The position numbers and the translations under genes are program-made. DNA of 42,824 bases from Gammaproteobacteria bacterium. GTDB taxonomy: Bacteria > Pseudomonadota > Gammaproteobacteria > GCA-001735895. The stretch is from assembly GCA_024763505.1 (NCBI GenBank), contig JANTFI010000010.1, positions 1-42,824 of the forward strand, read 5' to 3'. Under the pieces are notes generated by a model. It did no database searches. It was not told the DNA's origin and saw nothing but the letters and a program-made list of their open reading frames with translations. Below, one piece after another: positions 20,340-39,483 of this stretch; positions within the stretch are counted from its first letter, which is position 1; the number at the start of each line of letters is the position of its first letter.

Positions 20340-22211
20340 ATGCTGATTCGCCACGAAAAGCCCGGCTATATCATGGTGCTGGCGTCACTGCTGGTGATGT
20401 TACTTACGGCTTATCTGTTGTTTGACTATCAGCGTTCTGATCGCGAACAGCAGGCACGAGAGCAGGGGCTGGCACTGGCACGTTTGATTTCCAGCATGCC
20501 ATGGCAGCAAGTGGTTGGCCAGTCCGGCTCTAAGGGATTGCTCGACGCCCTGAGTGAAGGCCAGAACAATCCGGATTTCTCCTATGCTCAAGTCATCGAT
20601 AAATCCGGCCGTGTGGTCAAGGAAGTCGCTGCACGCGGCATTATCGTGCCTGATCAGCCGATCTCAATCGAGCCCTCCAGCTGGATTGGGCAGCGTCTGG
20701 TCGACCGGAAAGGTCAGCCAGGCAGTGCCGACAAGGGTAATGGTGCGACTGATTCAGAAGCGACCAGCTTCATCGAGTCACACGCCCCGCTGTTTCAGGA
20801 TGATCAGCTCAAGGGTTTCATCAAAATCGGTTATCGCCAGCCGGAATTGCAATTGAGCTACGCACAACTACCTTTTCTGGCGACGCTGACTCTGCCGATA
20901 TTTTTGCTTACCCCGCTGTTTTATTACTTCTTGCGTCAGGAATTGAAACCCTTGCGCAAGATCGGCCAGAGTATCGATGACATCAGCAACGGCTTTTTAC
21001 AGCAGCCACTGGAACTGCAACCGAATGCCGAGCTCGGTCAATTTATGGAACGCTTCAATCAATTCATCGAAACGACCCAGGCACATATCCGCAAGCTCGA
21101 CACCGAGCAAAACGATCTTTATATGTCGAGTAAACTGCTTAGCTACAAAAACAGTAAGGTAGAATCGATTTTGCAAACCCTGCCGGAAGCTGTTCTGGTT
21201 ATCGACAAGTCGGGGGTGGTGAGTTACGCGAATCAGAAAGTCGACAGCCTGCTGGGAAAAAATTCCGAAGAAATAATGGATAAGAAGCCGGCTGAGTGGT
21301 GTCAGTCTCCTGAACTGTTGAAAGTGATGTCGGGAAATTATAACAAGGGTTCGATATCAACGGTTTCCGGATCGAGCTTGAGCGGAACTGCAAGCAACAG
21401 CACCAAAAAATATGAAGTATTGACCTATCCGCTGTTTTCGCCAAAAGATGACAGCCAGTTGTTGGGCCGATTGGTGGTGATTCGCGATGTAACCGAGCAG
21501 TTTTACGAACGCCAGCGTCAGGGCGAATTTATCGCACAGATTGCACATGAACTGAAAACTCCACTGAATGTGCTGGCAATGTACAGTGAAACCCTGATCG
21601 ATGAAGAGTTAACTTCGGCTGAAATGAGGATCGAAGCGGCGAATGTGATTCATGATGAAGTCGAGCGCCTGTCGACGCTGATCCAGAATCTGCTGACAAT
21701 TTCGCAATATGAACTGGGTGGTCTGCTGATCGAGCGCCAGCGTGTACGTATGCAGGAATTTTTGCAGGATGTTTTCGACACAATGGCAAAAAGCGATCGA
21801 GCTCGTACATTGAATTTCGAGATCGATCTACCTCATGAGATGGGCGTTGCCCAAATTGATAAAGCTCTGATGCGTATCGCGATCAATAATCTGCTGAGTA
21901 ATGCGATTAAATATAACCGCCCCGGTGGCCAGGTAAAGCTGGAAGCACGAGAAACTGACCATGCCCTGGAAATCAGTGTCAGCGACGATGGCTATGGCAT
22001 TTCCGAACAGGATCAGCAACATATTTTCGATAAATTCTTTCGCTCCGAAGACAATCATATTCGAGAGCAGACCGGACATGGACTCGGTTTGTCTTTGACG
22101 CGCCATATCGTACTAATCCATCAGGGTGAACTGACGGTCAGCAGTGAGCCCGGGCAGGGCAGTCTTTTTAAAATTACGCTGGACAAGCGTCCGGACAACC
22201 TCGTTGGGTAA
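20340..22211 (+). CDS. Membrane sensor histidine kinase with PAS domain
   Basis: A 623-residue kinase. A first transmembrane helix (about 10-29) and a second (about 177-199) enclose a periplasmic sensor region of about 145 residues. A HAMP-like segment follows (LRQELKPLRKIGQSIDDIS), then a short coil, a PAS domain (about 272-388, LPEAVLVIDKSGVVSYANQKV), and the HisKA helix with IAHELKTPLNVL, His403 being the phosphoacceptor. The ATPase domain has AINNLLSNAIKYN, DDGYGIS and GHGLGLSLTRH, all intact. GAGGTGG lies before the ATG. A receiver protein starts directly at the base after its stop. It heads the pilus locus, so it probably controls fibre assembly; its ligand is unknown. Confidence 0.92.
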   Translation: MLIRHEKPGYIMVLASLLVMLLTAYLLFDYQRSDREQQAREQGLALARLISSMPWQQVVGQSGSKGLLDALSEGQNNPDFSYAQVIDKSGRVVKEVAARGIIVPDQPISIEPSSWIGQRLVDRKGQPGSADKGNGATDSEATSFIESHAPLFQDDQLKGFIKIGYRQPELQLSYAQLPFLATLTLPIFLLTPLFYYFLRQELKPLRKIGQSIDDISNGFLQQPLELQPNAELGQFMERFNQFIETTQAHIRKLDTEQNDLYMSSKLLSYKNSKVESILQTLPEAVLVIDKSGVVSYANQKVDSLLGKNSEEIMDKKPAEWCQSPELLKVMSGNYNKGSISTVSGSSLSGTASNSTKKYEVLTYPLFSPKDDSQLLGRLVVIRDVTEQFYERQRQGEFIAQIAHELKTPLNVLAMYSETLIDEELTSAEMRIEAANVIHDEVERLSTLIQNLLTISQYELGGLLIERQRVRMQEFLQDVFDTMAKSDRARTLNFEIDLPHEMGVAQIDKALMRIAINNLLSNAIKYNRPGGQVKLEARETDHALEISVSDDGYGISEQDQQHIFDKFFRSEDNHIREQTGHGLGLSLTRHIVLIHQGELTVSSEPGQGSLFKITLDKRPDNLVG

Positions 22212-22601
22212 ATGATGATGAAGAAAATCACACTGGTTGATGATGAAATGCATGTGCTGCGCATTATGAGGCTGTCACTGGAAAAACAGGGCTATGAAGT
22301 GAGCACATACAGTAATGGCGAAGAAGCGCTCGCTGCGTTGAAGCAGGGTGAGCACCCGGATGTATTGGTTACCGATATACAAATGCCACGCATGACAGGC
22401 GAAGAGTTATGCAAAAATATTCGCCTCGAATTTCCAGATCGCAGCTTTCGTATCTTTGTGTTGACTTCGCGCACGGAAATCGAACATCGAGACTGGTCTG
22501 CCAGTTTTGATAATCTGGAGTTTTTGGAAAAACCCGTCAGCATGCGCCAGTTACTCATACGGCTGGATAGTTACTTCCAGAGCCAGAAAATTCCTTCGTG
22601 A
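22212..22601 (+). CDS. Single-domain response regulator
   Basis: A 129-residue CheY-like receiver with no output domain. The acidic pair is Asp10/Asp11 (ITLVDDEMH), the phosphoacceptor Asp55 (VLVTDIQMPRMTG), Thr85 (FVLTSR) and Lys107 (FLEKPVS). The ATG follows the kinase stop without a gap; two more ATG codons (22215, 22218) are alternative starts. The output must pass through protein contact. The downstream EAL protein, or the STAS domain of the ATPase, are the obvious candidates, but this is inference. It ends seven bases before the next ATG. Confidence 0.93.
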   Translation: MMMKKITLVDDEMHVLRIMRLSLEKQGYEVSTYSNGEEALAALKQGEHPDVLVTDIQMPRMTGEELCKNIRLEFPDRSFRIFVLTSRTEIEHRDWSASFDNLEFLEKPVSMRQLLIRLDSYFQSQKIPS

Positions 22602-22608
22602 GCGCCTC

Positions 22609-24822
22609 ATGTCTGTGAAAACCCTGTCCACCGCTCGATTTAATAATTACTGGAAGCTGCTGAAGCTGTCAGCCCCATGGGTCGATATCGCCATTATTTT
22701 TGACCGGGAAGGCAAATTTTGCTGGCAGAGTAACCGCCGCTTACATTCGCAAATGGATCGAATCACCATTCTTGCGCAACGTTTTCAGGAAGAGTTAAGC
22801 GACCCGGCAACACAGGAAATCCAGCAGGATCTGGGTGATGGAGAAATGTTGATCCTGATGCGGCTGGTTGACTCCGAGATCGACGAGGTATTGACCATTG
22901 CGTTGATCACGCATGAATTCAATCTAGCCCAAAAGCGCTCGTCAGAAAACGACTCGACCTTGCAATTACTGAACCAGAGCTTGCTCACTGAATATAACCT
23001 GATTCGAAAAAATCTGGAAAAAGAGCAGGAGCTGAATGCTATTGCCGATGAATTGACACACCGATACGAAGAGTTGAACCTGATTTACTCCTCCGATGAT
23101 CAGGTTCAAAATCTTTCGCATGGCCGGGAGTTGCTGCAGCAAATTATCGCCAATGCCACGAATTACCTGAATGTCGATCTTGCGACGATCATATTACCGG
23201 ACAAAAATGTGGTGCTACAGGCTGCTAGGGAGGTGGATTCTCCTCAGTCCTATAAACTTATCCTCGATGCGTTGCATAAGGATATCTATATGCAGCTTCA
23301 GTTACACAAGCAATCTCTGGTCATCAACAGTAGCCAGGATGCAATGAATTTCAGCCTGTTTATTGAACTGCCTTATAAAATGGTTGTTTCTCCCATGTTT
23401 AATGCCGATAACAAGGTAATAGGCCTGGTCGCCATTGTTAATGAGCTGAAACATATCGATTTCACCAATAGTGATCGTAACCTGCTCGAAGTCCTTGCCA
23501 ACAAGGCTTCAACCATCGTCGTACATAATTTTGATCCTCTGACCGGGCTGGAGAACAATCACAGTTTTGAAATGATTGTTTTCGATACGCTCAAGCAATC
23601 CTGGCAAAACGGCAGTCAACATGCCATTGCAAGTATTGATATTGACCGGATGGCTGTTATCAATGCGATCAGCGGCCTGGAAGCGGGTGACCAGTTAATC
23701 AAGCAGGTCGGATCAACACTTGGAAAAATGGTTCGCTCCTACGATACCGTGGCTCGTCTGGGTGCTGATAAATTTGCCGTGCTGTTGAAAAACTGCAGTT
23801 TGGAGAAAGCTCAGCATTTGTTAGAAAAGATTAGCGAAGCGGTTTCCACTCTTGGATTCAATTACCAGGGGGAAGTGCATGAAGTCAGCTTGAGTGTTGG
23901 CATAGCGCCGATTTCGGCTGATATTCAATCCGTGTCCAGTGTGCTCGGTAATGTTGAGTCTGCACGTATCGCGGCAAAGGAACGTGGTCGAAATCAGATA
24001 CAGGTGTTCAAGCTGGATGACAGTGACTTGCTGCGGCGCAAGAAAATGATCTACTGGGTCAGTCGTACTCAGGCGGCGTTGCGGGAAGATCGTTTCGAGT
24101 TGCATGCGCAGAAAATTCAGCCGATCGATGCAACGGGGCAGCTACCGCATTATGAAATTCTTATCCGCATGCTCGACGATAATGGCGAGCTCGTGTCGCC
24201 GGGCGATTTCCTGCCGGCAGCCGAAAATTTTTACCTGATGCCCAAGCTTGACCGCTGGGTCATCAGGCACTGCTTCAGCCTGCTGGCGCAACAGCTCAAA
24301 GAAAACGGTTCAATTCCCTGTGAAGTGTCGATCAATTTGTCGGGACAATCGATTACCAGCGAAGGGTTGCATCCATTTATTGATGACATGTTTCGGCAAT
24401 ATGCGATTGATCCGTCTTTGATCTGCTTCGAAGTAACCGAAACCTCTGCCATGGCCAATCTGGAAGAAGCAAAAGCGTTCATCCACAAGATACGAGAACT
24501 GGGTTGTCACTTTTCACTGGATGACTTTGGCACCGGTCTTAGTTCCTTTGCGTATTTAAAGAATTTACATGTCGATTTCCTCAAAATCGATGGCGTTTTC
24601 GTCAAACATATTGTCGATGATGAAGTGTCTCGCAGCATGGTGTCCGCGATCCATCAGGTTGGTCGTGCGATGGGCTTGAGAACGATTGCGGAATATGTTG
24701 AAAATGAAGCCATCTTGCAGCAATTGAGTAATATCGGCATCGACTATGCGCAAGGCTATGGCATCGCAAAACCAGTTCCATTCGCAGGTGTTCTGAAAAA
24801 TTTACAGGGTAATCCACGGTAA
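22609..24822 (+). CDS. GAF / degenerate GGDEF / EAL c-di-GMP phosphodiesterase
   Basis: A 737-residue soluble signalling protein. Residues 1-110 form an N-terminal domain I do not recognise, and 115-165 a coiled coil. A GAF domain spans about 165-305, and a GGDEF domain 308-468 whose active loop reads LGADKF instead of GGDEF (384-389), so cyclase activity is unlikely; it may bind GTP. The EAL domain at 480-733 has YEILIR with Glu516, INLSGQS, FEVTET, LDDFGTGLSSFAYLK, FLKIDG and EYVENE, and YAQGYGIAKPVP, so it should hydrolyse c-di-GMP. The ATG at 22609 fits the short gap after the receiver gene. Its stop shares one base with the start of the MshEN-type ATPase, so the enzyme is made together with a probable c-di-GMP receptor. 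Confidence 0.9.
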   Translation: MSVKTLSTARFNNYWKLLKLSAPWVDIAIIFDREGKFCWQSNRRLHSQMDRITILAQRFQEELSDPATQEIQQDLGDGEMLILMRLVDSEIDEVLTIALITHEFNLAQKRSSENDSTLQLLNQSLLTEYNLIRKNLEKEQELNAIADELTHRYEELNLIYSSDDQVQNLSHGRELLQQIIANATNYLNVDLATIILPDKNVVLQAAREVDSPQSYKLILDALHKDIYMQLQLHKQSLVINSSQDAMNFSLFIELPYKMVVSPMFNADNKVIGLVAIVNELKHIDFTNSDRNLLEVLANKASTIVVHNFDPLTGLENNHSFEMIVFDTLKQSWQNGSQHAIASIDIDRMAVINAISGLEAGDQLIKQVGSTLGKMVRSYDTVARLGADKFAVLLKNCSLEKAQHLLEKISEAVSTLGFNYQGEVHEVSLSVGIAPISADIQSVSSVLGNVESARIAAKERGRNQIQVFKLDDSDLLRRKKMIYWVSRTQAALREDRFELHAQKIQPIDATGQLPHYEILIRMLDDNGELVSPGDFLPAAENFYLMPKLDRWVIRHCFSLLAQQLKENGSIPCEVSINLSGQSITSEGLHPFIDDMFRQYAIDPSLICFEVTETSAMANLEEAKAFIHKIRELGCHFSLDDFGTGLSSFAYLKNLHVDFLKIDGVFVKHIVDDEVSRSMVSAIHQVGRAMGLRTIAEYVENEAILQQLSNIGIDYAQGYGIAKPVPFAGVLKNLQGNPR

Positions 24823-26912
24823 TGCCTGTAAATAATCTCGATGCCATGACCCTGCACGAAGAAACCGCTCCGCGCGAAGTCGCGGAGAACCGGATGGGTA
24901 CGATGACCCATCTGGTGCCGAAAGGAGCGCTGTTGACAGAGCAGCAGCAACAACCATTGATCGATGCGCTGGACAATTGCCTGCAGCAATGGAATACCCA
25001 GATCATTATCGACCTGGCTGCGCTTACCCGGTTGAATAGTCGTAATATCGAAATGCTGGTGCACTACCACCACAAGCTGGTCAAGGCAGGTGGCTGGCTC
25101 AAACTCGCCAATGTCAAGCCGTTGATTCGGGATATTTTGCGCATTACCGGTGTGGATGAATTGATACCGCAAGTCGAAAACCTGTTGCAGGATCCGCAAA
25201 CTGCCCCGCCACCTGCACCGGCTGCTTCGGAAACCCCGGTCCGCCTCGGCGATTTGCTGCTGCAAAAAGGATTACTTGATGAAGCGCACATCGAGCAGGC
25301 GATACAGTTACAAAAAAAACAGGGCAAGCGGCTGGGGCAAATTGTGGTAGATCAGGGCTGGGTCAGTGAACATGATTTTCTGAGCACCCTGAGCGAACAA
25401 CTGCAATTGCCCTACATCACGCTGCGTAACGGCCTGTTTGATCCCGAAACCTTTAATCTGATGGATCGTGACACTACCCGGCGACTCAATATTGTGCCGC
25501 TTTTCATGGTTAATGGTATGTTGTCGATCGCCACTGCCGATCCACAGTCGATAGCCAGCCTGAGCGAAATTGAAGACCGCCTCAATTGTCGGGTAAGGCC
25601 GGTGTTGGCGCGACGGGAAGATATTGTCAAAACGCTCAGTGAAGGCGAAGGCGGCAATGATTTCGGGGCCGAAATTATCGAAGATCTGGAAGATGATTTT
25701 GCTGTGGTCGATAACCCGGTGCCGGATGATTACACCGGTATCGACGACATGGCGGCCGGCAGCCCGGTCATCAACATGGTCAATTCGATTATTCAGCGTG
25801 CGGTGCATGACAAGGCCAGTGATATTCACATTGAACCCTCCAAACAGAAATGCCGTGTACGTTTTCGTATCGATGGTTTGCTCTACGAAGTAATGGCGCC
25901 GCGTATCGAATTACACCCGGCATTGGTATCGCGACTCAAGGTGATGGCCAAGCTCGATATCGCCGAGCGGCGCATGCCGCAGGATGGTCGCATTCAGGTG
26001 AATACCCAGGGGCGTTCGGTAGACCTGCGCTTCAGCTCCCTGCCTGGGCTGTACGGTGAAAAGGTCGTACTGCGCGTGCTGGACAAGAATGCCACCATCA
26101 TGGATGTCGCCAGTCTCGGCATGCAGGATATAAATCTGCAGAAATTCACCCAGTTGCTGGGACGCAGTTATGGCTTGATTCTCGTTACCGGGCCGACCGG
26201 TAGCGGAAAAACCACCAGCCTGTATTCGGCCATCAATTATCTCAACAGCATCGAAAAAAATATTGTAACGATCGAAGATCCGGTCGAATACCAGCTCGAC
26301 ATCGTCAACCAGAATCCGGTGCGTGAAAATATCGGCCTGACCTTTGCCAAAATGCTCAAGCATGTTTTGCGGCAAGACCCGGATGTCGTCATGGTGGGTG
26401 AAATTCGCGAAAAGGAAACCGCCGAAATCGCGGTGCAGGCGGCACTTACCGGGCATCTGGTGTTATCGACGCTGCACACCAATGATTCCATCGGCGCGGT
26501 CACCCGTATGCTCGACATGGGCATCGAGCCGTATCTGCTGTCATCGGCGCTGATTGGCGTGGTCGCGCAACGACTGGTGCGTTCGATCTGCCCCAACTGC
26601 AAAACCGAATATCTGGCCTCGCCCGAAATCATTGACCGCTTCAACTGGCAGGATCGCGGCAAGGTCAAGTTGTCGAAAGGACGTGGTTGTAACGAATGTT
26701 ACGATTCCGGCTATCGTGGACGACTCGGCATTCACGAAATCATCGAAGTCGATCAGGATTTGCAAAAGCTCATTATTGCCAACCCGTCGCGCGATAACCT
26801 GACCGGTTATCTGGATGATCACAAGATCAGATTGCTATTCGACGACGGGCTCGATCGTGCGCTCGAAGGCAAGACCACAATCGAAGAAATTTCCCGCGTG
26901 ATCAATAACTGA
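24822..26912 (+). CDS. STAS-MshEN-GspE/PilB assembly ATPase fusion
   Basis: A 696-residue protein. Residues about 30-120 look like a STAS domain (IIIDLAALTRLNSRNIEMLV, then GGWLKLANVKPLIRDILRITG); Ser73 is at the place of the phosphorylated serine of anti-sigma-factor antagonists. Residues 140-200 contain two RLG motifs (Arg141, Arg170) in the pattern of the c-di-GMP-binding MshEN domain. The motor follows: SDIHIEP, GPTGSGKTTS (457-466), Asp box TIEDPVEY, Walker B DVVMVGEIRE, His box STLHTND, and four zinc cysteines (590, 593, 623, 626). It drives extension of pili or pseudopili from the inner membrane. It starts inside the stop of the EAL gene (TAATG). The STAS part is unusual for this family. 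Confidence 0.93.
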   Translation: MPVNNLDAMTLHEETAPREVAENRMGTMTHLVPKGALLTEQQQQPLIDALDNCLQQWNTQIIIDLAALTRLNSRNIEMLVHYHHKLVKAGGWLKLANVKPLIRDILRITGVDELIPQVENLLQDPQTAPPPAPAASETPVRLGDLLLQKGLLDEAHIEQAIQLQKKQGKRLGQIVVDQGWVSEHDFLSTLSEQLQLPYITLRNGLFDPETFNLMDRDTTRRLNIVPLFMVNGMLSIATADPQSIASLSEIEDRLNCRVRPVLARREDIVKTLSEGEGGNDFGAEIIEDLEDDFAVVDNPVPDDYTGIDDMAAGSPVINMVNSIIQRAVHDKASDIHIEPSKQKCRVRFRIDGLLYEVMAPRIELHPALVSRLKVMAKLDIAERRMPQDGRIQVNTQGRSVDLRFSSLPGLYGEKVVLRVLDKNATIMDVASLGMQDINLQKFTQLLGRSYGLILVTGPTGSGKTTSLYSAINYLNSIEKNIVTIEDPVEYQLDIVNQNPVRENIGLTFAKMLKHVLRQDPDVVMVGEIREKETAEIAVQAALTGHLVLSTLHTNDSIGAVTRMLDMGIEPYLLSSALIGVVAQRLVRSICPNCKTEYLASPEIIDRFNWQDRGKVKLSKGRGCNECYDSGYRGRLGIHEIIEVDQDLQKLIIANPSRDNLTGYLDDHKIRLLFDDGLDRALEGKTTIEEISRVINN

Positions 26913-26914
26913 CG

Positions 26915-28036
26915 ATGGCAATCCAGAATCAGAAAAAACCGCTAAAGGCGAGTGAATCAGGCAATCAGGCACGGCCGTGGTATCAATCATTCGGCGGCAG
27001 CAAGCTGACGGCGAAAGATCGGAAGTTCTTCACCGAACAAATGGCGCTGTTGCTGGAAACCGGCAGTAATCTTCAAGCCAGCCTGCAAGCTTTGAAAAGC
27101 CAGGTCAGCAAGCCGGAGATGCGTGAACTCGTGGCCCGGCTGCAGGATGATATCGAACAGGGACGGCAGTTTTCCGCCGCGCTGGCGCAGCATCCCGATT
27201 TCTTTTCTCAAACCTACATCAATCTGATCGCAGCCAGCGAAGATGCCGGTTACATGCACGAAGTGCTGGAGCAATTACTCGAGATGGAAGACAAACGCGA
27301 GCAATTGCAGCAAACCATCGTGTCGGCTTTGTCGTATCCGGTTTTTCTGTTGGTGTTCGCGATTGCCGTGGTGATATTTGTGCTGGCGGTGGTGTTCCCA
27401 AAATTTGCTGACCTGTTTTCCCAGATAGCCGATCAATTACCGGCCACCACAGTATTTTTGATGGCGACCAGTGATTTCATACAACATGACTGGGGCTATC
27501 TGCTGGGTGGGCTGGTGGTTTTTTTCGGAATATTGAAATGGTGGCTCGCGAGTGAGCAGGGTAAGCAAAAAACAGATGCCGCAAAACTGCGTTTGCCATT
27601 GATTCGCGAAATATTTTCACAGCTCTATCTGGTGCAATCGTTACGTGTGCTGAGTTTGTCGTTGGGAAACGGGGTGAATGTCATAGATGCCCTGCGAACC
27701 AGTCGCAGCGTCGTCAATAATCGAATTTTTCAGCATTTTATGCGCCAGGTAGAAGATCAGGTTGAACAGGGAAAAGGCATTGCGATCGGTTTTCAGGGAG
27801 CTGCCTTTATTCCGCCGGTGGTGGCGCAAATGATCAAAACCGGTGAAGAAACCGGCCAGTTGCCGAAGGTGCTGGAGCGATTGTCGAACTACTATGAAGC
27901 CGAGTTGAGCAAACGCTTGCAAACCCTGTCGCGTATGGCCGAACCCTTGATGCTGTTGATTATGGGGGCTGTCGTCGGGGTCATCGTCAGCTCCTTGATT
28001 TTACCAATTTTCAAGCTTTCCCGTGCTGTGGGCTGA
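26915..28036 (+). CDS. GspF/PilC/MshG inner-membrane platform protein
   Basis: A 373-residue polytopic protein of the type II secretion F family. Two repeats of the cytoplasmic helical domain are visible: FFTEQMALLLETGSNLQASL with YINLIAASEDAGYMHEVLEQL, and LVQSLRVLSLSLGNGVNVIDAL with VAQMIKTGEETGQLPKVLERL. Three hydrophobic segments lie at about 144-170, 195-217 and 342-368. It anchors the ATPase and passes its motion to the growing fibre. The N-terminal segment is shorter than in PilC. The start is two bases after the ATPase stop. Confidence 0.95.
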   Translation: MAIQNQKKPLKASESGNQARPWYQSFGGSKLTAKDRKFFTEQMALLLETGSNLQASLQALKSQVSKPEMRELVARLQDDIEQGRQFSAALAQHPDFFSQTYINLIAASEDAGYMHEVLEQLLEMEDKREQLQQTIVSALSYPVFLLVFAIAVVIFVLAVVFPKFADLFSQIADQLPATTVFLMATSDFIQHDWGYLLGGLVVFFGILKWWLASEQGKQKTDAAKLRLPLIREIFSQLYLVQSLRVLSLSLGNGVNVIDALRTSRSVVNNRIFQHFMRQVEDQVEQGKGIAIGFQGAAFIPPVVAQMIKTGEETGQLPKVLERLSNYYEAELSKRLQTLSRMAEPLMLLIMGAVVGVIVSSLILPIFKLSRAVG

Positions 28037-28095
28037 TCAGGAACGCTATGGTCATTTGCGCAACATCTCATTCTGGTTTTAAAGTGGTGAGATTT

Positions 28096-28125: not shown

Positions 28126-28164
28126 CGACTTACATCCTGAGCATTTTAACAAGGTTATCCATTT

Positions 28165-28728: not shown

Positions 28729-28743
28729 GCCGGTTTTCGCAGT

Positions 28744-30732: not shown

Positions 30733-33700
30733 ACGCGCAACGCGGGTACCTGTTGATCAGTGTAATCGTCACGCTGTTCATTCTCGCCGCTGTCACGCTG
30801 ATGATGAGCGAAGAAAGCGTGATGGAATCGCGCATGATCCATAGCGAGACGGAAAAATCCCAGCTTCGCTACCTGACCGAGGCCGCCATGCAACATGCCG
30901 AATGGTCCCTGCAGCAACAAGGCTGTGGTCCATTTTCTGACCTTTCCAGCACGGCCTTTGGCAAACATAGTTACTCGGCGACTTTCAGCCCCAACGAACC
31001 CCCCGGTATCTGGACGACTTACAATAATCTGCCGGTCGATCAAGATACCTGGCTCAAGCAATCGGCCCCTTCTGAATTACATGGTGCCGATGTGGAACTG
31101 AGCGTCAAGAACGTAGCTGCGGATAGCATGCAGGCGCTGTATCGATTTGATCTGTCCACCGTTCCTGCTGGCTCTCATATTGAATCGGCGATCGTAACCC
31201 TGTATGTCAGCGGCAATGACCCTCTAGGCGCGATCTCGATTCACCCGGTTACCGCTGACTGGAACGAGGCAACCGCTGACTGGACCAGCATGGCTACGCA
31301 ATTCGACCCAGTTCAACTGGCCTCGATACCGCCACAATCCAGTAGTGGTGTCACCGTTCAGGTTAACCTCACGGCACAGGTACAGGCCTGGATGAACGGT
31401 ACCATGCCCAACTACGGCATCATGCTGGTCGCCAGCGCCACTGGCAATGAATCCAAGCTGGCCAGCAAGGAATGGTCGACAACCACGCAAAGACCTCGGC
31501 TCGATGTGGTGACCACGACAGCAACCCCACCGAACCGTGCAGACATTACGGCCAGTAGCGTTTTAGTCAGCGGCATCACCCATTCCCTGCAACACCGTAA
31601 TATCCCACTGTATCAAAACCCGGCTAGCAGCTTGACGCTGCAACCGGATGGCGCAGTTGGCAAGGACAACCGGTTATACGAATGGAAAAGTAGCTGGAAC
31701 TACGGGGCGGATACAAGCCTGGTGGTAGACGATGTCTTCCCCGACTCGACTTCGATCAGCCTGATGCAATTCCCGCTGGAGGGTATCCCGGCGGGCGCAA
31801 GAATCATCAGTGCTACGCTGGCGCTGCACCAGAATTTCTCCAACAATACGGGTGGCCCCATTGGCGTTCACCGTGTCGCCGACAGCTGGATCGAGGGAGC
31901 CATGACGGGTCAGGCCGGAGCTTCCAACTGGACGGAAAGGGAAAGCGGTGTCACCTGGGCAACAGCAGGCGGAGATTTCGATGCTGCGCCGATCAGTGAG
32001 ACGACCTTAACCGCAAAAACGATCGGCTGGGTCGAATGGGATATCGCCGCGCTGGTTCAGGGCTGGGTCGATGAAACCTATGCCAACAATGGACTGGCGC
32101 TGGTCGCCGAAAGTATCGGAGCGGCCGGATATTTCGATAGCAGCGACGCGACCAACCCAGCTTTGCGTCCGAAACTGACCATCAGTTACAGCTGCGAATG
32201 CGGCATCGTCTGTCAGGCACCGGCAGGCTCTGGCAAGATCATCCTGGTGGGTAACTGGGCCGGTAATCATCCTGATCCTGCGGATCTGGAAAAGGCAGCG
32301 ATATTCGAATCCTGGGGATATCAGGTTGATCAGGTGGACGATGATTTTCTCTGGCTGGTCGATTTCAACTACTACGATCTGGTCTACATCTCGCAAACCA
32401 CGAGCAGCTCTGCAGTCATCGGACAACTGAGCTGGCGGAGCATAGGCATCGTCAACGAGCAGGGTGACCTGAATTTCGATCTGCTGTTCTCCTCCGGCAG
32501 TGCCACCCTGGTTGACGACTCGATAGATATCATCGACAACAGCCACTATGTCACTGCACCGTTTGCCCTCGGCGAATTGCGCATCTACGACGCGCCCATG
32601 GAACTGATCACCGCCGCCGGCAGCAAGGCGAGTGGCATGCAGACACTGGCCAGTGCAGTCGGTGTCGAAAGTCTGATGTTGCTTGAAGCCGGTGCAACCG
32701 GGGTCAATGGCTCTGCTGCCGGCAGGCGGGTTAATTTGCCGCTGGGACGAGCCGTCAATTTCAACTGGAAATACCTCAACAACAATGGCCGCCTGCTGGT
32801 GCAGCGCGCGTTGCAATGGGCGATCGAGAGCGCTCCGCCGATACCCGCGAAAAAAATCTACTGGACCGATGACAATGGTGCAATGATTCAGCGCTCCAAC
32901 GAGGATGGCTCCAACGTCGAAACCGTGGTCGTGAATCAGCCCAAGGTGCGCGGGCTGGATATTGACACCGTTAATGGCAAGATTTACTGGACCAGCGGTA
33001 AGAAAATCCTGAGAGCCGACCTGACGGGCAGCAACGTCGAAGACATTTACGCTGCGGTAACCGAGTCCAATTTTGACATCAAGCTGGATACCGTGGGCGG
33101 CAAGATGTACTGGAGCACTGAAAACCCGGATAACCAGATCATGCGAGCCAATCTCGATGGCACGGCTGTCGAAACGGTCAGTAGCTCGGTCAACCGACCG
33201 ATGTACATCTCGCTGGATCGGGCCAACAACCAATTGTATGCGACCGCCTTTGGCAGCGGTGATATCGTACGCATGAATTTCGATGGCAGTGCGCTGACCA
33301 CGATTATGAACGGCGTAGATAATGGCATTATCGGCAGCGCCATCGACCTTAAAAACGGCAAGGTCTACTGGTCGGGGGGAATCAGCAACGACTGGATCCG
33401 TCGCGCCAACCTCGATGGCAGCAATGTCGAAACCATTCTCACCGGTTTGAGTGCGCCGCAGGATATCGCGGTCGATGAAGACCATGGTCGCATCTATTTC
33501 ACAGATGCACTGGGTACGCCCTCGATCAAGCGCGCCAATCTCGATGGCACCGGTCTGGAAACGATCGTCAGCGGCCTCGATCGTCCGCGCGGTATCCTTG
33601 TCGTCAACGCCGAGCAGACGCCAGCCGTGCAACCACTTATCTGTAATGGCACTTATTTCGATCAATTCAACAACCGGGTGCTCGACGGTAGTGATGGCAC

Positions 33701-34136
33701 AATCGACTGGAGTACTTCAGCCTGGGCCGAAGTCGGTGAAAGCGATGGCGTAACCAAGGGCGACATCCAGATCAGAAACGACATCAGCAATTATCAACTG
33801 CAAATCAAGGACAACAATAACGGTGGTGAAGGCATGCAACGCGCAGTCAACCTCAACGGCGCCAGCATAGCCAGACTGCGCTTCAAATACCGCCGCAAGA
33901 GTCTGGATAACGCTGCCGATTATGTGTCGGTTTATATCTCATCCAACGGCACGGCCGGCCCGTGGGTCGAACTCGACCGGATCGGCACCACCAACGATTC
34001 GGTGTATAAGTCGTACAGCCGTGACATCAGCAGTTATATTTCGCCCGATACCGTCATTCGCCTGCTGAGTTCGCCCGATCTGGGCGACAAGGATGTTGTC
34101 TGGTTTGATGATATTGAGGTTCAGTGTATTCCATAA
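30729..34136 (+). CDS. Giant PilX/MshP-like tip protein with DNRLRE and YWTD propeller domains
   Basis: A 1135-residue protein. The N terminus QRGYLLISVIVTLFILAAVTL is a pilin-type helix without Glu at +5, as in GspK and PilX/MshP, which cap or prime fibres. The rest is extracellular: two DNRLRE-like beta domains (about 95-262 and 315-488, with ALYRFDLSTVPAG, AWMNGTMPNYGIML, ALVQGWVDETYANNGLAL); an alpha/beta segment (503-700, KIILVGNWAG) like glutamine-amidotransferase folds; six repeats of about 42 residues with [IV]YWT/S motifs (706-960), an LDL-receptor-like YWTD propeller; and a C-terminal beta domain (974-1135, VVWFDDIEVQC). Several cysteines suggest disulfides. Likely an adhesin or ligand-binding tip. 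It overlaps the previous gene by four bases. Confidence 0.9.
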   Translation: MNAQRGYLLISVIVTLFILAAVTLMMSEESVMESRMIHSETEKSQLRYLTEAAMQHAEWSLQQQGCGPFSDLSSTAFGKHSYSATFSPNEPPGIWTTYNNLPVDQDTWLKQSAPSELHGADVELSVKNVAADSMQALYRFDLSTVPAGSHIESAIVTLYVSGNDPLGAISIHPVTADWNEATADWTSMATQFDPVQLASIPPQSSSGVTVQVNLTAQVQAWMNGTMPNYGIMLVASATGNESKLASKEWSTTTQRPRLDVVTTTATPPNRADITASSVLVSGITHSLQHRNIPLYQNPASSLTLQPDGAVGKDNRLYEWKSSWNYGADTSLVVDDVFPDSTSISLMQFPLEGIPAGARIISATLALHQNFSNNTGGPIGVHRVADSWIEGAMTGQAGASNWTERESGVTWATAGGDFDAAPISETTLTAKTIGWVEWDIAALVQGWVDETYANNGLALVAESIGAAGYFDSSDATNPALRPKLTISYSCECGIVCQAPAGSGKIILVGNWAGNHPDPADLEKAAIFESWGYQVDQVDDDFLWLVDFNYYDLVYISQTTSSSAVIGQLSWRSIGIVNEQGDLNFDLLFSSGSATLVDDSIDIIDNSHYVTAPFALGELRIYDAPMELITAAGSKASGMQTLASAVGVESLMLLEAGATGVNGSAAGRRVNLPLGRAVNFNWKYLNNNGRLLVQRALQWAIESAPPIPAKKIYWTDDNGAMIQRSNEDGSNVETVVVNQPKVRGLDIDTVNGKIYWTSGKKILRADLTGSNVEDIYAAVTESNFDIKLDTVGGKMYWSTENPDNQIMRANLDGTAVETVSSSVNRPMYISLDRANNQLYATAFGSGDIVRMNFDGSALTTIMNGVDNGIIGSAIDLKNGKVYWSGGISNDWIRRANLDGSNVETILTGLSAPQDIAVDEDHGRIYFTDALGTPSIKRANLDGTGLETIVSGLDRPRGILVVNAEQTPAVQPLICNGTYFDQFNNRVLDGSDGTIDWSTSAWAEVGESDGVTKGDIQIRNDISNYQLQIKDNNNGGEGMQRAVNLNGASIARLRFKYRRKSLDNAADYVSVYISSNGTAGPWVELDRIGTTNDSVYKSYSRDISSYISPDTVIRLLSSPDLGDKDVVWFDDIEVQCIP
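32844..33608 (+). repeat. Six YWTD-type propeller repeats within the tip gene
   Basis: The encoded repeats start near residues 708, 750, 791, 834, 877 and 919 with IYWTDD, IYWTSG, MYWSTE, LYATAF, VYWSGG and IYFTDA. Each is followed by a R[AS]NLDG[ST]-type turn and V/LETI strand, at a period of about 42 residues. Six such repeats form one closed six-bladed propeller in LDL-receptor-type proteins. The repeats are diverged at DNA level. Confidence 0.85.
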
Positions 34137-34257
34137 AGCACTGGATACAGACGTTGTAGCGTTGAGAAGCTTTGCATTCTACTACCATGTGTATATTCTG
34201 TGATGCCCGTACTGTGGAATAATAAATAGACAGATTTCCTGTCACAGGATCAATATA

Positions 34258-35115
34258 TTGCAAATGAATGCTCACTGGGAAAAGGTTCTTTCTGAAAGCC
34301 GACTCATCTCTCTGCCCGAGGTGTACCTGCGCCTGCAGCAAGTGCTGAATACGGAAGAGTATGCGCTGTCTGAACTGGTCGAAGTCATCCGACTGGATCC
34401 TGCTATCAGCACGCGTTTGTTGCGCATCGTTAACAGCTCATTTTTCGGGCTGGCCGAAACGATCGAGTCGATCGACCTCGCGGTCAATTATCTTGGCGCA
34501 CAGCAAATCCATGATCTGGTGCTGAGCACAGTGGTTGCCGAGTCTTTCGGCGATATGCAAAACGACGTGGTCGACCTGCACGATTTCTGGCAGCGCAGTA
34601 TTTATTGCGCGATCAGTGCGCGCGAACTGGCGCTGCAAATGAATGTTGTCGACAGTGAGCGCTTGTTTGTGGCCGGATTGCTGCATCATATCGGGCATTT
34701 GATGATGGCGCAGGCCATTCCACAACAAATCCGCGAAGCGCATCAACTAGCGCAGCAACAAGCGATACCGCAACACCGGGCCGAGCAGCAATTGCTCGGT
34801 TTCGATGCCAGCACGGTCGGTGCAGAATTACTCGGCCGCTGGAACCTGCCGCCCTATCTGGTGCAGACCATCGGTTTTCAGCATACCCCGGAAGAGGCGG
34901 GCGAACTGCGTCTGGACGCGGCTATCTTGCAAGCTGCGGTGGTGCTGTCACGCACCTATAACCAGGATATCCAACTGGATCTGGCGCTGCAGGATATGGA
35001 CGCGATCGTCTGGAATATTCTGGGTCTCGATAACGGCACCTTTCAGCAAGTCGATATCCAGGCACAGCAAAACCTGCGGTTGGTGCAGTCTCTGTTGTTT
35101 CCATATCTCGATTAG
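34258..35115 (+). CDS. HDOD-domain signalling protein
   Basis: A protein of 285 residues (283 if the ATG at 34264 is used). I prefer the TTG at 34258 because AGGA at 34246-34249 is eight bases from it but fourteen from the ATG. The HDOD core is clear: LPEVYLRLQQVLN, VIRLDPAISTRLLRIVNSSFFGL, IDLAVNYLGAQQIHDLVLS, FWQRSIYCAISARELA, and FVAGLLHHIGHLMMAQ. HDOD proteins are non-enzymatic adaptors in two-component and c-di-GMP signalling. It lies between the tip gene and the PilM-type gene in the same direction, so it is probably another regulator of the fibre. There is no second domain. Confidence 0.9.
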   Translation: MQMNAHWEKVLSESRLISLPEVYLRLQQVLNTEEYALSELVEVIRLDPAISTRLLRIVNSSFFGLAETIESIDLAVNYLGAQQIHDLVLSTVVAESFGDMQNDVVDLHDFWQRSIYCAISARELALQMNVVDSERLFVAGLLHHIGHLMMAQAIPQQIREAHQLAQQQAIPQHRAEQQLLGFDASTVGAELLGRWNLPPYLVQTIGFQHTPEEAGELRLDAAILQAAVVLSRTYNQDIQLDLALQDMDAIVWNILGLDNGTFQQVDIQAQQNLRLVQSLLFPYLD

Positions 35116-35367
35116 CCCGGTACAAACGGGTTACTGTAATACCGCCCCGGTTTTGTGGCGGGCATATTCGCTTTTTCCCGATAACTGGTCTATAAAAAGA
35201 TAGATTCTTTTGCAGGCTTTTTTGCGGTAGCCACAGTAACTTCATGAACCAGTCAAATCATTCTTTTTATTTCTTTCACTCATATTTACTTTTCGTTGCA
35301 CGGGCTCTTGTGCCCGGTCATTTGCTGATGGTAACAGCTCTTTTTCCCAGACGGACGGATTGACCAA
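35116..35367 (+). other. Gene-free stretch before the PilM-type gene
   Basis: In 252 bases I see CCGCC...GGCGG (a five-base stem near 35149-35163), a TATAAA at 35191-35196 that may be a -10 with no good -35, and CGGGC-TCTTGT-GCCCG near 35308-35324. A promoter for the pilMNOPQ-like group is plausible. I looked for a c-di-GMP-I riboswitch here, as it would fit the locus, and did not find its conserved sequences. Confidence 0.4.
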
Positions 35368-36504
35368 ATGGGGGCATTTGACCGACTGCGTCGTTCTGCG
35401 AAACCAGCCAGCAAACGATCTCTGAAGCCAGGCCTGATCGGACTGGAAATCGGTAGTGAAAATCTGCATCTGTGCCAGTTACGTGCCGAACCGGATCAGC
35501 GCTATACCATTGTGGCCAAAGCCTCGGTGAGCCTGCCTGTACCTCGTTCGCAATTGATGGAATCTCCTGCGTTGTTCAAATCGTTGGTCGTCAAGGCGCT
35601 GAAGGGCAAAGGTTTCAAGGGCCGTCACGTAACCGCCATCATGCCGCCGGATGAAGTCAAGATTATGCTGTTGAGTTATAAATCCGGCGTGCACGATGTG
35701 GACGCCGAAATCGTGCGCATGGTTGGCCAGCGCGTGAGCGGAGATATCGATGATTATGTCATCGATTACTTACCGGTACGCAATAAAAACACCGATGATG
35801 AACATATGGTGATGGCCTCGGTCTGCCGTCAGGACAAGGTAAACGGGTTTCTGAAATTGCTCGAATCAGCCGGGCTGGAACCGCATTCACTGGATATCGG
35901 GCCATCGGCTTTGCGGCGGTTGATCAGTGTGCTCTATTCCGATGACAAAACCAGTAATGTACTGCTGATCAATACGACCGAGGAAAGCAGTTATCTGACC
36001 ATTGTTTCAGGTCGACGACTGCTGTTTGATCAACCCGTAAAATTCGGCTGCTCTCATTTATTTGAGCAACTGGCGGAGGCGCTTGACGTACCCATAGAGA
36101 AAGCCCGGCAACTGGTTGAGCAACATGGTTTTTCGGCAACATCTTTGCCACTGGCCGAGACTCACGGCAAGAGCAATCCGGAAATTGCCCAAACCCTGCG
36201 TGAAATCGTCAAGCCAGCTTTTTTGAGCCTGGTTGAAGAAATCAACCGGGTGCTGATTTTTACCTCCTCCGAAACACATGGCGTTCCACTGAGTCGGGTT
36301 TATCTGCTCGGCTGTGCCGCCCGGCTGCCCGGAGCTCATGATGTAATGTTGTCGATGCTGGATGTACCCATTGCACAGGATCACCATGATTTCAATCAAG
36401 TGTTTCAGGACGAGAATGATCATACAGAGGCCTGGAGTAACCGGTTGCCTGAGCTCGCGATCGCTACCGGCCTGGCTTTGAGAGGCATGCAGGCGGATGA
36501 ATAA
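35368..36504 (+). CDS. PilM/MshI-like actin-fold assembly protein
   Basis: A 378-residue cytoplasmic protein of the PilM family, with an FtsA/actin-like fold. Visible parts are GLIGLEIGSENLHLCQL (first phosphate loop), VTAIMPPDEVKIMLL, DYLPVRNK, LEPHSLDIGPSALRRL, VLLINTTEESSYLTIVSGRRLLF and VYLLGCAARLPGAHD. PilM links the cytoplasmic ATPase to the PilN/PilO alignment complex. The N-terminal basic stretch (RLRRSAKPASKRSLKPG) precedes the fold. The region upstream (35116-35367) is 252 bases without a gene. PilN overlaps its end by eight bases. Confidence 0.93.
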   Translation: MGAFDRLRRSAKPASKRSLKPGLIGLEIGSENLHLCQLRAEPDQRYTIVAKASVSLPVPRSQLMESPALFKSLVVKALKGKGFKGRHVTAIMPPDEVKIMLLSYKSGVHDVDAEIVRMVGQRVSGDIDDYVIDYLPVRNKNTDDEHMVMASVCRQDKVNGFLKLLESAGLEPHSLDIGPSALRRLISVLYSDDKTSNVLLINTTEESSYLTIVSGRRLLFDQPVKFGCSHLFEQLAEALDVPIEKARQLVEQHGFSATSLPLAETHGKSNPEIAQTLREIVKPAFLSLVEEINRVLIFTSSETHGVPLSRVYLLGCAARLPGAHDVMLSMLDVPIAQDHHDFNQVFQDENDHTEAWSNRLPELAIATGLALRGMQADE

Positions 36505-37162
36505 TATCGATCTGATTCCGCAGCAGTATCACCGCAAGCGGCTTTTCGATCGTTGGCTGAAACGGGCTCTGCTGGTTTTTTTACTGTGTACAGCCGTGAT
36601 CGTGTCGGCGTTTGCACTGTTGCGTTTCGAGACGGCCGACATGCAACAAAAAATCAAACAGCTACAGGCGCAAAAAGCGATCAGCAACAATAAACGTGCG
36701 CAGTTGGAAAAACTCGATCAACGCAAGAAAGATTTCCAGCAGCGCCTGAATCTCCTGGCTGGGCTACGCAGCGGTGCACCGGCCGAAACCATGTTCAGCA
36801 TGGTGAATCAATCGATGCCAGCGCAGCGTATCTGGATCAACCGCTGGAGGTTTCGCCGTGCAGGGACTGCGGTCGAGAAACCGGATAATACGGTCAACAC
36901 CGGTTACTTTATCGTCATTCCGCAGGGGGCTGGTACGCGTAACCAGAAACAGGAAACCTGGAAGATTGAAACCCGTATGACATTGGATGGGCAAGCCTTC
37001 GATTATGAAGCGCTGTCAGATTTTGTGCTGAATCTGACCCGCCGATCAGAGATCGAGAGTGTACGTGTACTGACCACCCAAATGATCGAAGTAAGCAACA
37101 TAAAGCTGGTTAATTTTTCTGTTGAGGTGACGGTTGCTCCGGTACTGGAGAAACAGGGATGA
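36497..37162 (+). CDS. PilN-like inner-membrane alignment protein
   Basis: A 221-residue protein. The start MNNIDLIPQQYHRKRLFDRW is the PilN cytoplasmic motif that binds PilM (NLIP-like). One transmembrane helix follows (about 24-44), then a periplasmic coiled coil (TADMQQKIKQLQAQKAIS...AQLEKLDQRKK) and a ferredoxin-like domain with ESVRVLTTQMIEVSNIKLV. It forms a dimer with the PilO-like protein. It overlaps pilM-like by eight bases and pilO-like by four. Confidence 0.9.
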   Translation: MNNIDLIPQQYHRKRLFDRWLKRALLVFLLCTAVIVSAFALLRFETADMQQKIKQLQAQKAISNNKRAQLEKLDQRKKDFQQRLNLLAGLRSGAPAETMFSMVNQSMPAQRIWINRWRFRRAGTAVEKPDNTVNTGYFIVIPQGAGTRNQKQETWKIETRMTLDGQAFDYEALSDFVLNLTRRSEIESVRVLTTQMIEVSNIKLVNFSVEVTVAPVLEKQG

Positions 37163-37725
37163 ATGATTTTCTCAACGATGTTAATCCGCGCATGATTGCA
37201 CTATCGATGATTTTGATTGTCGGCTTGCTGATAACATTGCAACTGATGTATTTACTCTGGCCCGAATATCGAAAATACCAGACCCTGACAGAGAATTACC
37301 AATTGTTGCAAAAGGTCAGTAACAGTTCACACGGGTTGGAACAGGAACTGCTCAAAACCGAGCAGCAGGTAGAGGAATTATCCTACCAGTTGCACGGCGA
37401 TATGGCAGGCCTGCCTGAAAAACAGATGGAAGCCTTTATCATCGGACATCTGCAACGAATTTCTTGGGATGCCGGGGTGGAACTGGCCAGTGTGATACCG
37501 GGCAAGGGCCGCCGGGTAGAAATCTTTCAGGAAGCATTGTTCGACTTGCAGGTGAATGCGGCCTATCAGGATTTTTTCAAATGGCTGCAGGACATCAATT
37601 CCGAACTCGGGTTCATCGTAGTGAAGAAATTTGATATTCAATCGGCGGTATCGGCGATTGAAGAAGACCCGCAATTAAAAATTACCTTGACGCTGGTATC
37701 TTACCGGATGGTGAAAGATGACTAG
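37159..37725 (+). CDS. PilO/MshJ-like inner-membrane alignment protein
   Basis: A 188-residue protein with a short cytoplasmic start, one transmembrane helix (about 12-35, MIALSMILIVGLLITLQLMYLLW), a coiled coil (ELLKTEQQVEELSYQL) and a periplasmic domain with FIIGHLQRISWDAGVELASV, as in PilO (motif of the type IV pilus or MSHA biogenesis family). It links PilN and PilP/secretin. It overlaps both neighbours (four and eight bases), so stoichiometric synthesis is expected. Confidence 0.88.
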   Translation: MNDFLNDVNPRMIALSMILIVGLLITLQLMYLLWPEYRKYQTLTENYQLLQKVSNSSHGLEQELLKTEQQVEELSYQLHGDMAGLPEKQMEAFIIGHLQRISWDAGVELASVIPGKGRRVEIFQEALFDLQVNAAYQDFFKWLQDINSELGFIVVKKFDIQSAVSAIEEDPQLKITLTLVSYRMVKDD

Positions 37726-38152
37726 ATATTGTTTGCTTTTGTTAACCGCTTTGGCTGGCGCAGCAGCTGGCAGCAGCGTGCTGGCGCAGCAAACGCCCGC
37801 ACTTACGCCCACGCCGACAACGACGCTCAATCCTTTCAGCAAACCGGATTTGCTGAAACAGAAACCGCAACGTTTACCTGAAAGGTCGCGGGCTGCCGGC
37901 CCGGTCGAAGAGCCGGAAGAACCTGAATTCAGTCTCAGCGCAACGCTGATTTCGGTCAATACACCAATGGCCCTGATCAACGGCAAGCTCATTGAGCAAG
38001 ACCAGGAGGTCGACGGAATCCACTTGCTGCTGGTGGATGAGGACAGCGTCAAGATTCGCTATCACAATCGGATTTACCGCGTTTTCATTGAGCAGGATGA
38101 TCTTGGTCAGGGCGAAGACGTCCCCCTAATAAATTTACAGGGCACTTTATAA
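37718..38152 (+). CDS. PilP/MshK-like periplasmic protein
   Basis: A 144-residue exported protein. The signal peptide is CLLLLTALAGAAAGSSVLAQ with cleavage after AQ; there is no lipobox cysteine at the usual site, unlike typical PilP lipoproteins. A Pro/Thr-rich linker (TPALTPTPTTTLNPFSKPD) leads to a small beta domain with FSLSATLISVNTPMALINGKLI and VKIRYHNRIYRVFI, as in MshK and the GspC/PilP homology region. It should connect the inner-membrane complex to the secretin. Its stop shares one base with the secretin start (TAATG). Confidence 0.82.
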   Translation: MTRYCLLLLTALAGAAAGSSVLAQQTPALTPTPTTTLNPFSKPDLLKQKPQRLPERSRAAGPVEEPEEPEFSLSATLISVNTPMALINGKLIEQDQEVDGIHLLLVDEDSVKIRYHNRIYRVFIEQDDLGQGEDVPLINLQGTL

Positions 38153-39483
38153 TGATGAAAAGATATATCGGTATCGGGCTGATCTTCACGATTGGTTTGT
38201 TTAGCACAATTGTGCGCTCTGACACCTTAACGCTATCGCTGCAGGATGTGGATTTAAACGCCGCGATGCAAATGCTTTCGAAGCATGAAAAGATGAATAT
38301 ATTCGTGGCCGACGGGGTAGAGGGCACGGTTTCAGTGAATATTTACAACATGGAAACGATGGACGCGATTCGCTCAATTGCTGAGTCGGCCGGGTTTGTC
38401 GCGGAATTACGCGGCAACAGTGTGTTTATTATCAAGCGTGAAGATGCCGGAAAATATCGCAATAGCAGCAATACCCGGGTGCGTACATTCAAGATCCAGT
38501 ACACCACCACTTCTGAAATCGAAGCTATCTTGAAACAGCATTTGTCCAGCTACGGTTCGATCAAGTCGATGCCCAGCAATAACACACTGATCGTGCAGGA
38601 CACCCCCGAGTTTCTGGACAAGATGGAGGATTTGATCAATCGGGTTGATCGCGAGCCGAAACAGATTTTGATCGAGGCTAAAATTCTCGAGATTATCCTG
38701 ACCGATAACCAGTCTTTCGGCTTTAACTGGTCCAAGCTGTTTGACAGTTCAACCGCCACCGGTACGTTCGGCACACAGGGTCTGGCCAATGTCACCGCGC
38801 CGGGATTATTCGCTCAGTACAGTAATAGTAATGTAGATCTGGTGTTGAATGCATTGAAAGAGCGAGGCCGACTCAGAACCCTGTCGACCCCCAAGTTGTT
38901 GGCGATGGAAGGGCGTGAAGCAGAAACCGTGGTGGGCACCCGGCTCGGTTTCAAGGTGACCACTACGGTCAACCAGATAACCTCTGAATCTATCGAGTTT
39001 CTTGAGACTGGTATCATTTTGAAAGTGACGCCCTCGGTCGATCGCAGTGGCCAGATTCTGCTCGATATTCATCCGGAAGTGAGTGCCGGTACGGTGTCGG
39101 ATGACGGTATTCCCTCCAAGACCACGACTCAGGTATCGACCCGCATGCTGGTACCGGATGGCAAAACCGTGTTCATGGGTGGATTGATTCGACGCACCAG
39201 TAACCAGAGTCGGGAATCAGTGCCTGGGCTGGGCGACATGCCGCTGATCGGAGGCCTTTTTTCGAATGACTCAACCAATGTTTCGACCACAGAAATTGTC
39301 GTTTTACTAACACCGACGATCATCAAGTTTGATGGCAGTGATATTCACGAGAAAGCGACGATCAAGGTCGAGGCGCTGGAGCGGTTGTTGCAACAGGAGC
39401 AGAACGAAATAGTCAGCAAGATGAATAAAGTGCTGGACGAAGACAATGAAACCGATATTTATGGCAATGTAGGACAGCAATAG
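38152..39483 (+). CDS. Secretin, MshL/PilQ/GspD family
   Basis: A 443-residue outer-membrane channel protein. After the signal peptide (ending about IVRS at 23), an STN-like N domain (LSLQDVDLNAAMQMLSKH), one N1/KH-like domain (RTFKIQYTTTSEIEAIL, NTLIVQDTPEFLDKMEDLI), and the secretin core follow, with ILIEAKILEIILTDNQSFG, STPKLLAMEGREAETVVG and VPGLGDMPLIGGLF. It is shorter than most PilQ or GspD (fewer N domains, no AMIN). The ring would let the fibre leave the cell. The C terminus is hydrophilic, with a possible pilotin-binding tail. It is the last gene of the locus. Confidence 0.93.
   Translation: MMKRYIGIGLIFTIGLFSTIVRSDTLTLSLQDVDLNAAMQMLSKHEKMNIFVADGVEGTVSVNIYNMETMDAIRSIAESAGFVAELRGNSVFIIKREDAGKYRNSSNTRVRTFKIQYTTTSEIEAILKQHLSSYGSIKSMPSNNTLIVQDTPEFLDKMEDLINRVDREPKQILIEAKILEIILTDNQSFGFNWSKLFDSSTATGTFGTQGLANVTAPGLFAQYSNSNVDLVLNALKERGRLRTLSTPKLLAMEGREAETVVGTRLGFKVTTTVNQITSESIEFLETGIILKVTPSVDRSGQILLDIHPEVSAGTVSDDGIPSKTTTQVSTRMLVPDGKTVFMGGLIRRTSNQSRESVPGLGDMPLIGGLFSNDSTNVSTTEIVVLLTPTIIKFDGSDIHEKATIKVEALERLLQQEQNEIVSKMNKVLDEDNETDIYGNVGQQ

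Follow-up and report, generated by a model that had tools for sequence, protein, structure and literature searches.

A putative type IV filament system with a c-di-GMP-binding type of motor and a giant modular tip pilin, probably close to MSHA in its motor, recurring in marine gammaproteobacteria

The contig JANTFI010000010.1 of the gammaproteobacterial assembly GCA_024763505.1 (42,824 nucleotides, in the following called the window) carries at 20340-39483, on the forward strand, a locus of 16 genes. These probably encode a complete type IV filament machine that regulates itself and belongs to a lineage without a name so far. The machine would be close to the mannose-sensitive haemagglutinin (MSHA) pilus in its motor without being MSHA, and would build a fibre gated by cyclic di-GMP (c-di-GMP) and provided with a carbohydrate-binding tip. 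Not previously described means here that no description was found among open-licence papers. The genes encode, in order, a sensor kinase, a receiver, an EAL phosphodiesterase, a motor ATPase, a platform protein, five pilin-like proteins of which the last is a giant, an HDOD protein, PilM-, PilN-, PilO- and PilP-like proteins and a secretin. This list of 16 co-directional genes had been given in an initial annotation, and all of them were found present and intact, the assignments being supported by Pfam and NCBIfam domain models except for the PilP-like protein and the GspI-like pilin. A surface fibre used for attachment, as proposed in the same annotation, remains the best reading of the genes, because a filament machine is combined with a c-di-GMP-type motor, an EAL protein, a kinase and receiver and a giant tip with modules like carbohydrate-binding modules (CBM).

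The motor ATPase (24822-26912, 696 residues) consists of an N-terminal STAS domain (3.8e-8), an MshEN domain (5.3e-15) and a GspE/PilB catalytic domain (T2SSE, 2.3e-137), a combination for which no published description was found in the same literature. The MshEN consensus is a 24-residue motif in tandem with a 5-residue spacer (PMC5013675). The motor has two such motifs, at residues 141-164 and 170-193 and with the 5-residue spacer, and both fit the published consensus, the deviations being Ile or Phe in place of Leu at position 17 and, in the first copy, Ile in place of Leu at position 21. The NCBIfam c-di-GMP motif NF053729 was matched with 63.1 bits against a cut-off of 38. The motor is a predicted c-di-GMP receptor, and c-di-GMP control within the locus is well supported by the agreement of both MshEN motifs with the consensus and by the intact EAL residues. 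The tandem motifs also agree with the earlier suggestion that the fibre is controlled at its motor. With MshE of V. cholerae, c-di-GMP promotes extension (PMC7096442).

The 737-residue protein encoded next to the motor (22609-24822, the start having been corrected to the ATG at 22609) has a GAF domain, a degenerate GGDEF motif (GADKF) and an intact EAL domain. The catalytic residues of the EAL domain (E, N, E, DD, K, E and Q motifs) are conserved in 26 aligned orthologues, nearly all of which have a degenerate GGDEF motif; judged by these residues the protein is an EAL phosphodiesterase of predicted activity. In eight relatives an additional gene between the tip and PilM genes encodes a GGDEF protein of ~390-420 residues with a membrane-like N-terminus and an intact RxGGDEF motif (L029:9252-10454, L032:736-1968, L071:1099-2340, L072:5999-7225, L074:607-1833, L076:4376-5536, L054:15553-16731 and L031:490-1758), and such a cyclase within the locus occurs in most of the same-family relatives examined and in Milos-ODIII6. 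It is absent from the window, where no remnant was recognised by eye in the six frames of 35116-35367, between the HDOD and PilM genes. A search of the rest of the assembly for an intact orthologue of the relatives' cyclase gave nothing beyond generic GGDEF matches with identity of at most 35 %, although absence elsewhere in a genome assembled in 229 contigs is weak evidence. According to the sequences, the window holds a phosphodiesterase and a receptor, whereas the relatives hold cyclase, phosphodiesterase and receptor together. Without this cyclase, the system of the window would depend for its c-di-GMP on cyclases encoded at other places in the genome, in which 29 GGDEF matches were seen. 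The locus had been credited with its own c-di-GMP circuit; this stands for the tandem MshEN motor and the intact EAL domain, but the circuit is incomplete, the GGDEF cyclase of most relatives examined being missing here.

The first two genes of the locus encode a membrane histidine kinase (20340-22211, 623 residues, HAMP-PAS-HisKA-HATPase_c) and a stand-alone, single-domain receiver (22212-22601, 129 residues, Response_reg 1.6e-22). The H-, N-, G1- and G2-boxes of the kinase are intact in all 22 aligned orthologues, and the phospho-acceptor Asp of the receiver is present in all 26. The receiver has no output domain and is a separate gene in every locus examined. A fusion of receiver and EAL protein was considered as a clue to the target of the receiver and rejected, since L047, L052 and L055, in which the two had looked fused, hold separate overlapping or adjacent genes. 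The locus showed neither an Hpt domain nor a hybrid receiver, the kinase having no receiver or Hpt match. Because there is one receiver and no Hpt, the kinase and the lone receiver are read as a two-component pair and not as a multi-step phosphorelay, a term which the initial annotation had used and which overstated the case. For the target of such a receiver there are two precedents: the single-domain regulator EmvR represses the ATPase of PilB, to which it binds (PMC11973254), and PdeK-PdeR provides an example of a phosphodiesterase as the target (PMC11656802).

The predicted tip is a giant GspK/PilX-like modular pilin of 1135 residues (30729-34136). Based on Pfam, a structure model and Foldseek, it contains a pilin helix (residues 8-64), two CBM96/DNRLRE-type modules, a middle domain, LDL-receptor-B repeats and a C-terminal jelly-roll; the beta modules were modelled confidently and the middle part (563-967) with low confidence. 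The two modules match CBM96 and disaggregatase repeats in Pfam, and their top Foldseek matches were carbohydrate-binding, the best being chondroitin-sulfate-binding and alginate-binding modules, with a likeness to CBM16-type modules as well. The tips of relatives range from 311 to 1818 residues and keep the CBM96-type part, while the C terminus varies and is often Laminin_G_3 lectin-like in place of the LDL-receptor-B repeats found here. The conserved modules suggest carbohydrate ligands. Modular pilins are a known kind, and the most extreme multi-domain example in a survey had 860 residues (PMC8179133).

Of the other pilins, the major pilin candidate (28165-28728, 187 residues, N_methyl) has a GspG/PilA-like N terminus and a nearly invariant pair of Cys80 and Cys111 across 23 aligned orthologues. 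It is followed by a GspH-like minor pilin (28744-29313, N_methyl; GspH 37.4 bits, below the cut-off of 80) and a GspI/PilV-like one (29310-29747, 145 residues), which was assigned by its pilin motif RGLTYLEV, kept in 21 aligned sequences, and by its orthologues, and the start of which was corrected to the GTG at 29310 with a 4-base GTGA overlap. The orthologues of the GspJ/PilW-like minor pilin (29740-30732, 330 residues, N_methyl) are 38-56 % identical in most complete loci. It has an Asp-rich insert, in which repeated DxDxDG-like loops, read from the sequence, resemble calcium-binding repeats. The order of the pilins had been said to parallel mshA-C-D-O-P; it does, but it fits gspG-H-I-J-K equally well, or gspE-F-G-H-I-J-K when the motor and platform are included.

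The inner-membrane platform protein (PilC/GspF; 26915-28036, 373 residues, T2SSF 6.5e-53) is encoded directly after the motor. The 3' part of the locus encodes the HDOD-domain protein (34258-35115, HDOD 1.7e-58), the PilM-like cytoplasmic stator protein (35368-36504, PilM_2 1.2e-19), the PilN-like protein (36497-37162, PilN 2.1e-6, N-terminal MNNIDLIPQQ), the PilO-like protein (37159-37725, PilO 4.6e-8), a PilP-like periplasmic protein (37718-38152) and a short secretin with STN, N1 and secretin domains (38152-39483, 443 residues, Secretin 2.8e-41). The PilP-like protein has no Pfam match and was assigned by position and weak similarity, with ~28-40 % identity to the gene at the same position in relatives. 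Genes abut or overlap in the sub-blocks 20340-28036 and 35368-39483 and also across the pilins, and there are gaps of 121-252 bases around the HDOD gene and of 128 bases before the major pilin. A promoter and terminator scan of the locus was uninformative, as the sites were no more numerous than in shuffles. As had been stated earlier for pilT and pilD, the window contig was found to have neither a second ATPase of the GspE/PilT family nor a prepilin peptidase; the sole prepilin peptidase match (PF01478) of the assembly is on contig C39, and PilT-family matches are on contig C16.

Searches of other genomes and a comparison of gene order in the neighbourhoods showed that the block is shared by ~35 distinct genomes, mostly of uncultured marine gammaproteobacteria. 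With the STAS-MshEN part of the motor as the probe, matches were found in 14 of the 36 genomes of the host's family and in one genome of another family. A scan with one genome per species gave 23 loci, each of which carries the label Gammaproteobacteria or that of a family in the class (Thiotrichaceae, Ectothiorhodospiraceae), among them an Olavius algarvensis Gamma 3 endosymbiont scaffold and Milos-ODIII6. A profile search found carriers in 12 of 230 genomes of the class (10 of 194 genera) and a single carrier genome outside it. Where the contig is long enough, the common order is kinase, receiver, EAL, motor, platform, pilins, tip, PilM-N-O-P and secretin, and in ~30 genomes the kinase, receiver and EAL genes lie directly 5' of the motor gene. 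Exceptions to the order are G177, with the minor pilins and tip upstream of the kinase, Milos-ODIII6, with the GspJ-like pilin and tip in that position, and G381, in which PilM-N-O-secretin is divergent. The HDOD gene, which occurs only in some relatives, and the GGDEF gene are additions specific to particular lineages. In one relative two or three HDOD genes follow one another between the tip and PilM genes (L169:18115-19900, L178:72-998); the second and third of them may be one gene split by a fetch boundary. Because block order and sequence are conserved in ~35 genomes, the gene set is far beyond chance.

The locus had been described as MSHA-like, and this holds for the motor and not for the identity of the system. 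The motor formed its own clade in both trees (100/100); when long branches were removed it was sister to the MshE set (93/93), in which references had been labelled by linkage to MshL and not by experiment. Tests on the trimmed tree nearly rejected a grouping with GspE (p-AU, the approximately unbiased test, 0.055). The motor is thus probably sister to MshE. The locus is also single and without a prepilin peptidase, as in the MSH model (PMC6668835), which would agree with a diverged member of the MSHA pilus family. However, the secretin scored 145 bits with MshL against a cut-off of 250.2, and 16 secretins of the system stood apart from 19 MshL (100/100 and 100/99) in a tree with one row each for GspD and PilQ. 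In the MSH model mshM is mandatory (PMC6668835), and the MSHA operon extends from mshH to mshQ (PMC7439477). In agreement with the initial annotation, no MshM- or MshN-like gene was found in the locus, and no AAA_22-type domain was detected by Pfam in any of the 16 genes; the PilM-N-O-P-secretin block is also ordered differently. Furthermore, contig C42 of the host genome has a cluster of an AAA_22 (mshM-like) protein, MshL, a TPR (mshN-like) protein, an MshEN motor and a platform protein, i.e. mshM-L-N-E-G. Its MshL scored 247.5 bits, just below the cut-off, and a second MshL on C106 scored 283 bits. We rejected MSHA membership because the secretin scored below the MshL cut-off and stood apart in its tree, because MshM and MshN are missing, and because mshL is present elsewhere in the genome, in one case with mshM, mshN and mshE; a diverged MSHA pilus is considered quite improbable. 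On the evidence of the genes the locus is MSHA-like in motor and control and not a member, because the motor is probably sister to MshE, yet the secretin is outside MshL and mshM is missing. The C42 cluster itself contains two MshE-kind motors of the PilB/GspE family (L021:524-2272 and L021:14172-15893), both with a platform gene after them; a gene for an NtrC-type regulator lies between the two.

Several observations weigh against the reading as a fibre of a separate lineage. The gene order EFGHIJK is that of the type II secretion system (T2SS), and several parts score nearest to T2SS models, the motor (GspE 580/630 bits), platform (GspF 301/424), major pilin (GspG) and GspH-like pilin scoring best on them, all below cut-off. 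The model of the major pilin gave no significant match in a fold search, and its weak likeness to EpsG (TM score 0.55 normalised by target) was not significant. A classical STAS switch in the motor is unlikely, because the position equivalent to Ser58 of SpoIIAA is Arg, and is variable in orthologues; a SpoIIAA-type serine phospho-switch was rejected on this replacement. The kinase, receiver and EAL genes are missing in G045 and the EAL gene in G070, so that the circuit is not obligatory. As the main alternative, the locus could be a T2SS-like export machine controlled by c-di-GMP. Its pilins would make up a short pseudopilus in the periplasm, and enzymes or the giant protein would be released or displayed by the secretin. 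Lack of Glu5 is a feature of GspK, and position 5 of the tip is Ser or Pro, never Glu, in 15 aligned sequences, which together with the gene order, the model scores and the likeness to EpsG favours export. Nevertheless, we regard export as unlikely. Placement of the ATPase and secretin within the T2SS had been named as a possible outcome, but the motor is outside the GspE clade (100/100) and the secretins form their own clade (100/100, with one GspD row); the secretin scored 206 bits with GspD against 351. With every model below cut-off, a true T2SS was rejected. No GspC-type or GspL protein was found in the locus with Pfam and NCBIfam; separate PilM_2, PilN and PilO proteins take the place of GspL and GspM, the PilO-like protein having a weak GspM match of 30.5 bits against 60. 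The host genome has its own GspD elsewhere, above cut-off, and the large CBM-like modules on the tip also argue against export. Membership in the type IVa pili (T4aP) was rejected on scores below the cut-offs (PilB 563/676, PilQ 207/284 bits) and on the rejected PilB grouping of the motor (p-AU 0.011). Type IV filaments in other systems serve in DNA uptake and surface sensing, and a filament with such a job, adhesion being secondary, would be a further alternative; with no competence genes seen in the locus and conserved tip modules pointing to carbohydrate ligands, it is very improbable.

The 3.1 Mb assembly appears to hold a T4aP (PilB, PilQ, PilD), a TfpB-type type IV pilus, a T2SS (GspD), two MshL loci and the system of the window, with five secretins in all; the filament loci are on C42 (L021), C106 (L065), C39 (L022), C18 (L066), C7 (L023) and C176 (L067) and in the window. 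A small exported NTF2-like (Cds6_C) protein is encoded at 39498-39923 on the reverse strand, convergent with the secretin gene; no counterpart was seen beside the locus in relatives, and the gene was left out of the locus. Opposite the giant tip gene, an antisense open frame of 552 codons (32007-33665, reverse strand) has no Pfam match and is probably an effect of composition. Further upstream, a gene at 3459-4928 (reverse strand), which overlaps a Mur ligase-like gene, encodes a serine/threonine protein kinase with a C-terminal cyclic-nucleotide-binding domain.

For the c-di-GMP-gated fibre we propose a mechanism in which the kinase would sense an envelope or surface cue and phosphorylate the lone receiver, which may act on the phosphodiesterase or on the motor, the N-terminal STAS domain possibly serving as a docking platform. 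Once bound to MshEN, c-di-GMP would favour the polymerisation of major pilin subunits by way of the PilM-N-O-P frame and the secretin. A complex of the GspI/J/K type would cap the fibre, with the giant tip presenting polysaccharide-binding modules for attachment. Processing of the pilins would fall to the PilD encoded at another place in the genome, and other parts of the genome would also have to supply PilT-family ATPases for any retraction.

The relation of local to global c-di-GMP signalling is an open question. The locus places a kinase, a receiver, a phosphodiesterase, a receptor motor and, in relatives, a cyclase beside one output, and such clustering makes local control directly testable. 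The chances seem evenly balanced that this is a distinct type IV filament system, with a motor sister to that of MSHA, in which sensing, c-di-GMP removal (and synthesis in most relatives examined), the c-di-GMP-sensing STAS-MshEN motor and a modular, carbohydrate-binding tip of up to ~1800 residues are inherited as a block, as a self-contained attachment switch. If so, it would be a recurring branch of the type IV filament superfamily, present also in the Olavius algarvensis endosymbiont scaffold and in Milos-ODIII6, the record of a single organism, and its modular tip pilins may determine the polysaccharide to which a marine bacterium becomes attached.

Compared to the MSHA systems of Vibrio and Shewanella, the locus has in common the MshEN-type motor, the lack of a prepilin peptidase in the locus, the GspH/I/J/PilX-like minor pilins and the predicted control of the motor by c-di-GMP. 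It differs by lacking MshM and MshN, by a secretin that lies outside the MshL clade, by the position of PilM-N-O-P-secretin at the 3' end, by the STAS domain on the motor and by the kinase, receiver, EAL and HDOD genes in the locus; the host genome carries mshM-L-N-E-G elsewhere. With the T2SS (gspC-N) it shares the order E-F-G-H-I-J-K, and its motor, platform and major pilin score best on T2SS models, whereas all scores are below cut-offs, PilM, PilN and PilO are separate, the motor has MshEN and STAS domains and lies outside the GspE clade, GspC and GspL were not found in the locus and the host genome has its own T2SS elsewhere. The T4aP control systems of Xanthomonas, PdeK-PdeR-FimX-PilB (PMC11656802) and EmvR-PilB (PMC11973254), similarly use a kinase with REC/GGDEF-EAL logic acting on an extension motor, and a single-domain regulator binding PilB; here the receiver and the GGDEF/EAL protein are encoded by separate genes beside their own motor. 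Adhesive or lectin modules are grafted onto a pilin N terminus also in modular type IV pilins such as PilB and PilC of S. sanguinis, from which the tip described here differs by its 1135 residues and tandem CBM96-type modules.

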